The notes beneath the pieces were generated by a model, which was not told the origin of the DNA, made no database searches, and worked only from the letters and a program-made list of their open reading frames with translations. A program made the position numbers and the translations under genes. From Thermosipho affectus (GTDB lineage: Bacteria; Thermotogota; Thermotogae; Thermotogales; Fervidobacteriaceae), in NCBI RefSeq assembly GCF_001990485.1, contig NZ_LBFC01000018.1, positions 124,001 to 188,000 of the forward strand: DNA of 64,000 nucleotides, in the 5' to 3' direction. This document shows positions 27,729 through 33,692 of this stretch, piece after piece. Within the stretch, counting starts at the first letter, position 1, and each line of letters starts with the position of its first letter.

Positions 27729-28913
27729 ATGAAGGTCTTATACGCACAATCAGGTGGGGTAACAAGTGTAATCAACGCGTCCGCATATGGGGTATTGGAC
27801 GAGGCACAAAAAGCAGGGCTTGAAGTATATGTGGGAATACATGGTATATCAGGTGTTTTAAGAGAAAATCTATTAAAAATTAATGGAAAAGATATAGAAG
27901 GGTTAAAATACACACCTTCTGCGGCTTTTGGTTCATGTAGAAGAAAGTTAAAAACACAAAAAGATATAAATAAACTCTTTGAAATATTTGAAAAGTATGA
28001 AATAGAATATTTCTTTTATAACGGTGGTAATGATTCAATGGACACTGCATGGAAGTTGTATACGGAGGCAAAAAAGAGAAATATACCATTAAAGGTCATT
28101 GGTGTGCCAAAAACAGTAGACAATGATTTACCGCATACGGATCATTGTCCAGGATATGGTTCTGCGGCAAAGTATATAGCTACTGCCATTATGGAAGCTA
28201 CACTTGATTTGAGGAGTATGTATGTGGATTCAACTAGGGTATTTGTAATGGAAATTATGGGTAGACACGCAGGGTGGCTTTCTGCTGCGGCAGGGCTTGG
28301 GTGGTTAAACGGTATAGGTGCAGATTTAATATTATTTCCTGAAGTGCCATTTAACAAGGAAAAGTTTTTGGAGAGGGTAGATGAGAGTATTAGAAGAAAA
28401 GGATATTGTTCAATAGCCGTTTCAGAGGGAATTAAGTATCCAGATGGTTTTTTTGTAGCGGATATGGGTTATACAGATAGTTTTGGTAATAGACAATTAG
28501 GTGGTGTGGGGTTTACAATTGCAGGGATGATAAGGTCAGAACTTTCACTTAAGACGCATGTTGCAATACCAGATTATCTACAAAGAAGTGGTAGACACAT
28601 TGCAAGTAAAACCGATGTAGATGAAGCAGAAGCAGTTGGAAGACAAGCTGTAAAACTTGCACTTGATGGAGTATCCGGGGTTATGGTTACAATAAACAGG
28701 GTGAGTAATTCACCGTATAAAGTAGAATATGGTACAGTGGAATTAAATAAAGTTGCAGAGGTAACAAAATATCTTCCCGACGACTTTCACACGGATTTTG
28801 AAGTGACTGAAGAGTATATAGAATATGCAAAACCATTAATTGAAGGTGAATTGTTCCCAAAATTTAAGGATGGCCTGCCAGTTTATACCATTTTTAAGGA
28901 GGTAGAAGAGTAA
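27729..28913 (+). CDS. pfp: 6-phosphofructokinase, pyrophosphate-dependent type
   Basis: 394 residues. The diagnostic loops are GGND at residues 99-102 and PKTVDND at 127-133. An Asp at the position of Gly104 and Lys at the position of Gly124 of ATP enzymes mark pyrophosphate use. MGRHAGW near 177 binds fructose 6-phosphate. It phosphorylates fructose 6-phosphate reversibly and matches the PPi-PFK known from Thermotoga. It starts at ATG 27729 after AGAGGGGG and is followed by two antiporter-subunit genes. Its 3' codons carry the AAGGAGGT that serves the next gene. Confidence 0.9.
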   Translation: MKVLYAQSGGVTSVINASAYGVLDEAQKAGLEVYVGIHGISGVLRENLLKINGKDIEGLKYTPSAAFGSCRRKLKTQKDINKLFEIFEKYEIEYFFYNGGNDSMDTAWKLYTEAKKRNIPLKVIGVPKTVDNDLPHTDHCPGYGSAAKYIATAIMEATLDLRSMYVDSTRVFVMEIMGRHAGWLSAAAGLGWLNGIGADLILFPEVPFNKEKFLERVDESIRRKGYCSIAVSEGIKYPDGFFVADMGYTDSFGNRQLGGVGFTIAGMIRSELSLKTHVAIPDYLQRSGRHIASKTDVDEAEAVGRQAVKLALDGVSGVMVTINRVSNSPYKVEYGTVELNKVAEVTKYLPDDFHTDFEVTEEYIEYAKPLIEGELFPKFKDGLPVYTIFKEVEE

Positions 28914-30211
28914 TCTTTTTTGTAGTTTTTTCGATTTTTCAGGTCATTTTTTCATTTTTTTTGTATTTATTGAAAAAGGCAAAATTTTTGCCTTTTTTGA
29001 TACCTATTTCTTCTATTTCCCTACTTTTTGAAAGATTTGATATTGTACTTTCTGGGTACGGGGGAGTACATTTAATTTTTGATTCAAATTCATTTTATTT
29101 TTTGCTTACCAATATCTCTTGTAGTATTATTGTGTCTTATTTTCTCTACCAAAATGGCAATGAGCATGTGTATTTTTTCTTTTCGCTCTTGCATACAATT
29201 TTAAATTTACTCTTTATCTCAAATGACCTGTTTAACATATACGTTATACTTGAAACTTCAACTTTGTTAATTACATTACTTATTCTTTCAAGTGAAAAAT
29301 TTGAGCAGAAGATAACGGCTATTAAATACATCTTTGCAAGTTCACTTGCGATGAGTTTTTATTTAATAGGAATAGGGATGCACTATTATTCAACTGGAAG
29401 TTTTGATATTTCAAATGTAGATGGACTTTCCGGGTACTTGATGAAATTTTCACTTCTTGCAAAGGGTGGTTTTTTTCTATTTGGGCTTTGGCTTCCAGAA
29501 GTACATTCAAATTCAGAGCCTGAAATTTCCGCAATGCTTTCAAGCGTGTATACACAATCGGTATTATTTCCACTTTTGAGAATAGGCTTAGATGACCTTT
29601 TTTTATTTGGAATAATGGCTTTTTTTTACGGAGTGTTTTTTGCCATTATTTCAAAAGATTTTAAAAAAGTTCTTGCTTACAGTTCAATGTCTCAGCTGGG
29701 AATAATGATTCTAAATCCTCTTTTTACACCTGTTTATGTGCTTTATCATGGTATATCAAAGAGTATTTTGTTTTTGAGTACAAGGTATGTTAAAAGAGAT
29801 TTATCCGAAAAAAGGGAAGTTCCCGTTTTCTTGTTTTTGGCTTTATTAATTTCTTTATTATCTATCTCTGGTTTTTCATTTACCGCTTTAGGATATGTTA
29901 AATCAAAACTTTTTGTGGAAAATTTTAAATATTTTAAATATATTGTAAGTTTTCTTAGCGCTGTTTATGCGGGGAAAGTTTTAAAGCTAAGGGTTGTATT
30001 CTCAAAAAGGCATATACTTTTGTTTTTATTTTCGATTTTTTTGATTTATCCATATTTTAACGTTATTTCATCTCTATTTGTAGTTTTAGGGTTGATATTT
30101 GGGTATTTTTTAAAGATTTATTTTGATTTTTCCATTACCACTGAATCCATTTTAACGTTTATGGTATTTTCAATTTCATTTTTTACTTTGCTTGGAGGAA
30201 GGTTATGGTAG
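28913..30211 (+). CDS. Mrp-type cation/proton antiporter subunit D-like (NuoM/N family)
   Basis: About 432 residues, roughly 13 helices. Family motifs are NDLFNIYVILETSTLL with the key Glu, AKGGFFLFGLWLPEVHS with the Lys, DFKKVLAYSSMSQLGIM and LYHGISKSILFL. It is shorter than usual MrpD (about 490). The first canonical start codon in frame is TTG 28961, which has no ribosome binding site and would cut off helix 1. A perfect AAGGAGGT at 28896-28903 instead points to ATC 28913, one base inside the pfp stop (TAATC); from there the frame reads a complete first helix. I infer that AUC is used. It probably pumps Na+ or H+ with partner subunits. Confidence 0.75.
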   Translation: MFFVVFSIFQVIFSFFLYLLKKAKFLPFLIPISSISLLFERFDIVLSGYGGVHLIFDSNSFYFLLTNISCSIIVSYFLYQNGNEHVYFFFSLLHTILNLLFISNDLFNIYVILETSTLLITLLILSSEKFEQKITAIKYIFASSLAMSFYLIGIGMHYYSTGSFDISNVDGLSGYLMKFSLLAKGGFFLFGLWLPEVHSNSEPEISAMLSSVYTQSVLFPLLRIGLDDLFLFGIMAFFYGVFFAIISKDFKKVLAYSSMSQLGIMILNPLFTPVYVLYHGISKSILFLSTRYVKRDLSEKREVPVFLFLALLISLLSISGFSFTALGYVKSKLFVENFKYFKYIVSFLSAVYAGKVLKLRVVFSKRHILLFLFSIFLIYPYFNVISSLFVVLGLIFGYFLKIYFDFSITTESILTFMVFSISFFTLLGGRLW

Positions 30212-30525
30212 ATTTTATAGCACCATTTTTGATCATATTTTTATCAATTTATGGTCTTTTGTTCAAAAAGCATATAATTTCAAAAATAATAGCGCTTGAT
30301 GTGTTAAATACGGGAATTGTTTTCTTGTTTGTAGTTATTGCGTCAAAAATTGGAAATGCGCCTCCTTTAAAGGGAAGTGGAAATTACGTAGATCCATTTC
30401 CACAAGCGGTTATAATAACATCTATAGTTATTGGGTTTGCCACAATTTCACTGCTTCTTTCAATTACCATGATTGTTGTGGAGAAGAAAAGAAAAAAGGA
30501 TTTAAATGAAATTGAAAAAGAGTAA
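30205..30525 (+). CDS. Mrp-type antiporter subunit C-like (NuoK family)
   Basis: 106 residues, three helices. The segment DPFPQAVIITSIVIGFATIS near residues 63-82 is the MrpC/NuoK hallmark, and the N-terminal helix with KKHIISKIIALDVLNTGIVFLF matches MrpC. It overlaps the D-like gene by seven bases, with ATG 30205 preceded by GGAGGAAGG. The usual Mrp order is C then D; here D comes first and the other subunits (A, B, E, F, G) are absent, so it may assemble with subunits encoded elsewhere, for example in a membrane hydrogenase or oxidoreductase complex. Confidence 0.82.
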   Translation: MVDFIAPFLIIFLSIYGLLFKKHIISKIIALDVLNTGIVFLFVVIASKIGNAPPLKGSGNYVDPFPQAVIITSIVIGFATISLLLSITMIVVEKKRKKDLNEIEKE

Positions 30526-32872: not shown

Positions 32873-32949
32873 CGGGGTGTAGCGCAGTTGGCTAGCGCGC
32901 TTGCATGGGGCGCAAGAGGTCGCTGGTTCAAGTCCAGTCACCCCGACCA
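32873..32949 (+). tRNA. tRNA-Pro (GGG)
   Basis: A 77-base cloverleaf including an encoded CCA. Acceptor stem CGGGGTG (32873-32879) pairs with CACCCCG (32939-32945). D stem is GCGC/GCGC. Anticodon stem CTTGC (32900-32904) pairs with GCAAG (32912-32916) around the loop ATGGGGC, placing GGG at 32907-32909, which reads CCC and CCU (Pro). T arm is CTGG-TTCAAGT-CCAG. The 5' C is typical of bacterial tRNA-Pro. It has a consensus promoter and its own terminator. Confidence 0.97.
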
Positions 32950-32951
32950 GT

Positions 32952-32976
32952 TGGCCGGTTTTACCGGCCATTTTTT
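32952..32976 (+). terminator. Intrinsic terminator of tRNA-Pro
   Basis: A perfect 7-bp GC-rich stem (TGGCCGG / CCGGCCA) with loop TTTTA and a six-T tail. It lies only 11 bases before the cobalamin riboswitch. Confidence 0.92.
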
Positions 32977-32987
32977 AAATATTCAAT

Positions 32988-33129
32988 ACTGCAGGTTAAG
33001 GGAATTCGGTGAAAATCCGAAGCTGCCCAGCAACCGTAACCGGGAACGAAATCTGCAAATGCCACTGGGTAAAACCTGGGAAGGTGCAGAGAGTAGGATG
33101 ATCCGGGAGCCGGGAGACCTACCTGTAGT
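32988..33129 (+). promoter_or_regulatory. Cobalamin (adenosylcobalamin) riboswitch
   Basis: The conserved core blocks of the B12 riboswitch are present in order: GGTTAAGGGAA, GGTGAAAATCCGAAGCTGCC, CAGCAACCGTAA, the B12 box GCCACTG at 33061-33067, GGAAGGTGCAGAG, AGGATGATCCGGGAGCC and GGAGACCTACC. P1 forms between ACTGCAGGT (32988-32996) and ACCTGTAGT (33121-33129). It is followed by a terminator-like hairpin and then the cobU operon, so high cobalamin should shut the operon off. No clear promoter stands between the tRNA-Pro terminator and P1. Confidence 0.97.
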
Positions 33130-33137
33130 AAATGATA

Positions 33138-33180
33138 TTTCCCAATTGCTAGGGCAATGTGGGAAAAGTTTGTTTTATTT
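33138..33180 (+). terminator. Riboswitch expression-platform terminator
   Basis: TTTCCCAATTGC (33138-33149) pairs with GCAATGTGGGAAA (33154-33166) with a one-base bulge, followed by a T-rich tract through 33180. It is the likely transcription switch acting before the cobU start at 33195. Confidence 0.75.
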
Positions 33181-33194
33181 TGGGGGGATAAAGG

Positions 33195-33692
33195 GTGGTT
33201 ATTTTAGTAACTGGTGGGGTTAAATCTGGAAAAAGTAGTTTTGCGCTTGAACTCTCAAGACGTTACAAGAAAAAAGCATTTATTGCAACAGGAGTTCCTT
33301 TTGATGAAGAAATGAGAAATAGGATAAACCGTCATAAAAGCGAAAGAAAAGGCTTTGACACCTTTGAAGAACCTGTTGAAGTAGATAAAGTAATTGAAAG
33401 TTTAAATGGAAAATATGAATTTGCTATTTTGGATTGTATTACCACGTATCTTGGAAATCTTTACTATTACAAGAAAGATATAGAAAATTATTTAGAAAAA
33501 TTTTTAAAAAGTATTAAAAAAGTTGATTATACATTGGTTTGTGTTACGAATGAAGTGGGGTGGGGAATAATTCCAGAAAACAAACAAGTAAGAGAATATG
33601 TAGAAAGACTAGGACTTTTAAATAAAGATATTGTAAAGATAGCACAAAAAGTCTATTTGATGGTATCGGGGATAGGGGTGGAATTAAAGTGA
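33195..33692 (+). CDS. cobU: Adenosylcobinamide kinase / adenosylcobinamide-phosphate guanylyltransferase
   Basis: 165 residues. P-loop GGVKSGKSS at about 7-15, and the RINRHKSERKGF block with His47 matching the guanylylated His46 of CobU. A LDCITTYLGNL Walker B-like stretch follows. It phosphorylates adenosylcobinamide and transfers GMP to give AdoCbi-GDP, feeding CobS. GTG 33195 is preceded by a GGGGGG-type site, 30 bases past the switch terminator. It is the first gene of the riboswitch-controlled operon; its stop TGA overlaps the next GTG. Confidence 0.95.
   Translation: MVILVTGGVKSGKSSFALELSRRYKKKAFIATGVPFDEEMRNRINRHKSERKGFDTFEEPVEVDKVIESLNGKYEFAILDCITTYLGNLYYYKKDIENYLEKFLKSIKKVDYTLVCVTNEVGWGIIPENKQVREYVERLGLLNKDIVKIAQKVYLMVSGIGVELK

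Follow-up and report, generated by a model that had tools for sequence, protein, structure and literature searches.

A conserved ATH codon overlapping the pfp stop codon is the probable start of an mrpD-like gene in Thermosipho affectus and its relatives

The window analysed here, meaning the whole stretch of 64,000 nucleotides from Thermosipho affectus (contig NZ_LBFC01000018.1, positions 124,001 to 188,000), carries a pfp-type phosphofructokinase gene followed by an mrpD-like and an mrpC-like gene. The pfp product matches the profile NF010675, diphosphate--fructose-6-phosphate 1-phosphotransferase. The features of the region, all on the forward strand, are:

27729..28913, + strand: pfp-type phosphofructokinase gene (open reading frame; Pfam PFK 1.3e-58; NF010675 519.5 bits, cut-off 273)
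28896..28903, + strand: Shine-Dalgarno (SD) sequence AAGGAGGT, read from the sequence within the last pfp codons
28911..28913, + strand: pfp stop codon TAA, with base 28913 common to TAA and ATC
28913..28915, + strand: ATC, proposed start of the mrpD-like gene
28913..30211, + strand: mrpD-like gene, 432 codons if it starts at ATC (NuoL/M/N-MrpA/D type membrane subunit; Pfam PF00361 1.4e-17)
28961..28963, + strand: TTG, first canonical in-frame codon, rejected as start (see below)
30205..30525, + strand: mrpC-like gene (NuoK/MrpC type) with an ATG start, overlapping the mrpD-like 3' end (Pfam PF00420 8.9e-19)

The product of the second gene scores 64.3 bits against PF00361 (Proton_antipo_M, cut-off 21.5), and Foldseek pairs its predicted fold with complex I subunits of the NuoL/M/N type and with MrpD, at E values of about 1e-10. 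The best NCBIfam subunit D equivalog, NF005563, gives 214.9 bits and stays below its cut-off of 454, and for this reason we use only the label “MrpD-like”. In one related genome (G015), and apparently in other genomes of the genera g4 and g5, a gene that we take to be comB-like lies between the mrpD-like and mrpC-like genes (L012:2749-3429); the window has no such gene. Further along the window, an open frame at 32888-33223 lies just upstream of cobU/cobS/cobQ-like genes, and its translation resembles that of a tRNA together with an RNA leader, the latter possibly a cobalamin riboswitch.

It had been predicted from the window alone that the mrpD-like gene starts at AUC. The perfect eight-base SD sequence claimed for the end of pfp is correct to the base, and reading of the junction confirms that ATC 28913 lies nine bases past it, in frame and with one base shared with the pfp stop; the open reading frame likewise contains no in-frame ATG, GTG or TTG before TTG 28961. 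Upstream, the mrpD frame is closed by TAA 28895-28897 and is open only back to 28898. The sequence AAGGAGGT occurs four times in the window, and the other three copies have an ATG 6-7 bases after the T, leaving the copy at the mrpD-like gene as the only one with no ATG, GTG or TTG within 12 bases. By codon usage, 16 codons without a canonical start have a 46% chance and are unremarkable alone. As far as sequence comparison goes, the weight of the case for an ATC start lies in conservation, that is, in an ATH codon (ATA, ATC or ATT) at the same distance from the SD sequence in nine out of nine genomes.

These nine genomes came from a search of the family covering 20 genomes, four of the same genus, in which the mrpD-like gene was found in G000 (the genome of the window), G001, G002, G003 and G015-G019, each time behind pfp. 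Among them are three publicly available MAGs that bear the name Thermosipho sp. (L089-L091, identical with L011, L013 and L014). The codon at the start site is ATC in G000, ATT in G003 and ATA in G001, G002 and G015-G019, with A, C or T as third base and never G. None of the eight orthologues carries ATG, GTG or TTG at the site; relatives with ATG at this exact position, which had been considered in the original prediction, did not appear, and ATT or ATA was found instead. The overlap between the pfp stop and the mrpD start takes the forms TAATC (window), TAATT, ATAA and ATAG. The sequence AAGGAGGT, or a near-identical one, is present in all nine genomes with GGAGGT kept throughout. In G003, G015, G017 and G019 an in-frame TGA lies two codons 5' of the ATH codon, so that the start cannot lie further upstream in these genomes. 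Canonical codons downstream in the mrpD frame are scattered and unshared among the nine. G019, which has TTG and GTG 3 and 5 codons after the ATH codon and, in the alignment, an N-terminus two residues longer, is ambiguous and the weakest case. No clear mrpD-like orthologue exists in the family's genera g2 and g3, where pfp stops several residues sooner; GGAGGT was absent from the pfp ends in the nine listed g2/g3 genomes lacking the gene. The SD sequence therefore goes with the mrpD-like gene and not with Pfp itself. Together with the aligned starts of homologues outside the family (see below), the ATH codon in all nine genomes supports the predicted AUC start, and we give a probability of roughly 85% that ATC 28913 is the start of the mrpD-like gene.

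The spacing from GGAGG to ATC is 10, which is long but in range: in the same-genus genome G003 the optimum is 7, and 18 of 471 strong-SD ATG starts have a spacing of 10. Folding of four junctions gave z-scores from -0.85 to 1.05, with no unusually stable RNA structure. The long spacing and the overlap with the pfp stop, which is on the scale of one, three or four bases, suit a ribosome that has finished pfp and is kept in place by the SD sequence, and the hallmark of reinitiation pairs, a stop/start overlap with an SD sequence inside the upstream gene, is present at this junction. Most likely, the perfect SD sequence at the pfp end would hold on to ribosomes fresh from termination at the overlapping stop codon and would select the ATC start for reinitiation, with the initiator tRNA presumably placing fMet at ATC across a third-position mismatch. 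Coupling of mrpD initiation to pfp termination seems probable. In E. coli reporters, AUAA and UAAUA junctions without a downstream SD sequence showed no reinitiation when the recycling factor was active (PMC9955659), and the SD sequence must accordingly be essential if reinitiation at mrpD holds. It is at this type of overlap, unusable without an SD sequence in the E. coli reporter, that the mrpD ATH codon is conserved in nine genomes. An ATH codon would lower initiation well below the ATG level and yield little membrane subunit per pfp mRNA, and it would render the mrpD-like gene sensitive to IF3. Such a throttle would limit the membrane subunit to small amounts next to a plentiful glycolytic enzyme, and on balance we lean towards the ATH codon at mrpD being a selected throttle and not mere tolerance.

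The alternative that survives best accepts the ATH start and concerns its purpose, not the identity of the start codon: the codon could be used and merely tolerated, as a product of drift behind pfp that is rescued by the strong SD sequence. This possibility gains from the presence of ATH starts in several unrelated genes of the clade. The start of infC appears to be ATT or ATC in the readable genomes of the family. Three further candidates, suggested by a scan of G003, were traced through the family: ruvB, mnmA and an inorganic phosphate permease gene. An apparent ATT or ATC start of ruvB stands at spacing 7 after GGAGG in all nine Thermosipho-type genomes (L240-L248; G003:C1:1528847); some genomes have a GTG one base past the GGAGG, and G003, G018 and G019 have none. 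For mnmA the apparent start is ATA, ATT or ATC at spacing 7-8, again in nine of nine (L260-L268; G003:C1:1546709); these genomes have an in-frame stop a short way upstream and offer no canonical start codon, and in several g2/g3 genomes a GTG is available behind GAG. A single aligned start position of the phosphate permease gene (L280-L288; G000:C18:36792) reads ATA in G003 and G000, ATT in G002, G001 and G016, ATG in G017, G015 and G019, and GTG in G018; in G000 and G016 the codon immediately preceding it is an in-frame TAA. We regard this exchange between ATA/ATT and ATG/GTG as the best single proof of working ATH starts in the clade, and it is also what one would expect if ATH codons were tolerated. 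Against mere tolerance, ATG never occurs at the mrpD, ruvB and mnmA starts in the nine genomes, although one base change would suffice, and this points to selection against ATG there. Drift and rescue are thus a possible explanation of the mrpD codon, and a less likely one than selection. These other genes also bear on the original prediction, which described a rare start codon outside the usual infC case: the gene does encode a membrane protein and is not infC, but the rarity does not seem to hold within this clade.

A pairwise survey set 400 kb of the genome that contains the window against G003 and examined 387 orthologue pairs for sites with ATH in both genomes, a strong SD sequence and no conserved canonical alternative. 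Four strict ATH matches were obtained (mrpD-like, permease, psuG-like and infC), and each of the control codon classes gave 0-3 matches, some of them codons adjacent to these very sites. The survey is thus supportive but separates ATH from the controls weakly, and it is the multi-genome alignments that carry the argument. Whole-genome scans of the complete genome G003 produced many weak ATH candidates, some of them clearly false. A possible ATT start was seen behind AGGAGGTG in the psuG-like gene (G000:C22:35347 and G003:C1:1251349), which we take to encode pseudouridine-5'-phosphate glycosidase, and a possible ATA start in a pth-like gene (G003:C1:174449). More speculatively, and with rather low confidence, the Thermosipho-type genomes may hold a standing set of ATH-start genes (infC, ruvB, mnmA, the mrpD-like gene and further genes in some species) that moves together with IF3 activity. 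If so, start-codon identity would define a regulon, one member of which is driven by reinitiation at ATAA, ATAG or TAATH junctions.

The remaining alternatives concern where, or whether, the mrpD-like gene starts, and they fare far worse. If translation began at TTG 28961 or at some codon beyond it, the open stretch upstream would be unused. TTG is canonical, and a gene finder confined to ATG, GTG and TTG would pick it, but this TTG has no SD sequence and is missing from the other eight genomes, and no orthologue begins at the residue it encodes. For the family as a whole a downstream start is very unlikely because the first canonical mrpD codon in L012 (G015) is only codon 37. The protein sequence is moreover conserved up to the ATH codon. 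Differences between genomes in codons 1-16 number 160, 82 and 237 at codon positions 1, 2 and 3, a pattern much like that of the later codons (307, 124 and 400), and this third-position bias argues that the stretch is translated in the mrpD frame. AlphaFold2, run with the nine-sequence alignment (pTM 0.84), predicts a helix at residues 2-19 in a block with pLDDT 79-91, in agreement with the earlier claim that the ATC start restores the first membrane helix; in this model a start at TTG would strip nearly all of it. Homologues in the order's other families start with GTG, ATG or TTG, and seven out of nine (L022-L024 and L026-L029) have a start that falls on the ATH codon in the alignment, as in MIFLVYNF compared with (I)FFVVFSIF, each GTG or ATG start of these seven having its own SD-like sequence; the other two start within two residues. 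Taken together, these data make a downstream start very improbable.

A -1 shift near the pfp end, with the SD sequence as stimulator and a Pfp-MrpD fusion as product, would fit two observations: the SD sequence precedes the junction, and the two frames stand in an identical relation in all nine genomes. In four genomes, however, the in-frame TGA leaves few codons for slippage, and these (GAA GAA CAA, GAC GGG, GAA GGG CAA and GAA GAA CTA) offer no heptamer for re-pairing; joining a soluble enzyme to a membrane protein is also implausible, and we give this reading hardly any credence. Just as little can be said for a start at GTA 28910, which has the optimal SD spacing of 7 and is shared by G000 and G003 but reads ACA, GCA or ACT in the other seven genomes. 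Sequencing error at 28913 was rejected, since it cannot account for ATC, ATT and ATA at one position across nine genomes, and homopolymer slippage was rejected because the T runs are not conserved.

To our knowledge, conserved non-AUG starts in bacteria form a very short list. No precedent for a non-AUG start in Thermotogae or Thermosipho was found in the literature searched, mainly outside subscription papers. Beyond the original prediction, the comparison of genomes adds that the non-canonical mrpD codon is itself conserved, with a third base that is A, C or T but never G, and that it seems to be one of several such starts in the clade. Gene finders confined to ATG, GTG and TTG miss ATH starts and misplace the N-terminus. 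The closest known case is infC, encoding IF3, whose AUU, AUC or AUA start resembles that of mrpD in standing behind a strong SD sequence and in being conserved across species. IF3 regulates itself, however, whereas the MrpD-like protein is an unrelated membrane subunit, and its gene overlaps the stop codon of the gene before it. In Staphylococcus aureus, conserved AUA and AUU starts with extended SD sequences yield about 10-30% of the AUG output (PMC13009471). The same study describes ccpN of staphylococci and Bacillus (AUA) and staphylococcal cvfC1 (AUU), which like mrpD combine a conserved AUH codon with an extended SD sequence and are experimental attenuators proven by Ribo-Ret and reporters, while the mrpD start is supported by comparison alone; they are other genes in another phylum, and no stop/start overlap of the mrpD kind was noted for them there (PMC13009471). 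The mrpD-like gene bears the marks of this class, with a conserved AUH codon in nine of nine genomes, an extended SD sequence and no conserved canonical alternative. Streptomyces sigR, which is repressed by IF3, likewise has a non-canonical start and a very strong SD sequence, and its start sets protein ratios; it differs in its codon, GTC, and in being the upstream gene of its pair (PMC5472188). Finally, termination-reinitiation pairs with ATGA or TAATG overlaps are a pattern reported for Thermotogae, and these share with pfp/mrpD the 1- or 4-base stop/start overlap and the SD sequence inside the upstream gene (PMC6728339). The pfp/mrpD pair differs in its start, which is ATA, ATT or ATC (ATAA, ATAG and TAATH), and it makes testable both the rescue of an AUH codon by a strong SD sequence with reinitiation and the control of a gene group by IF3.
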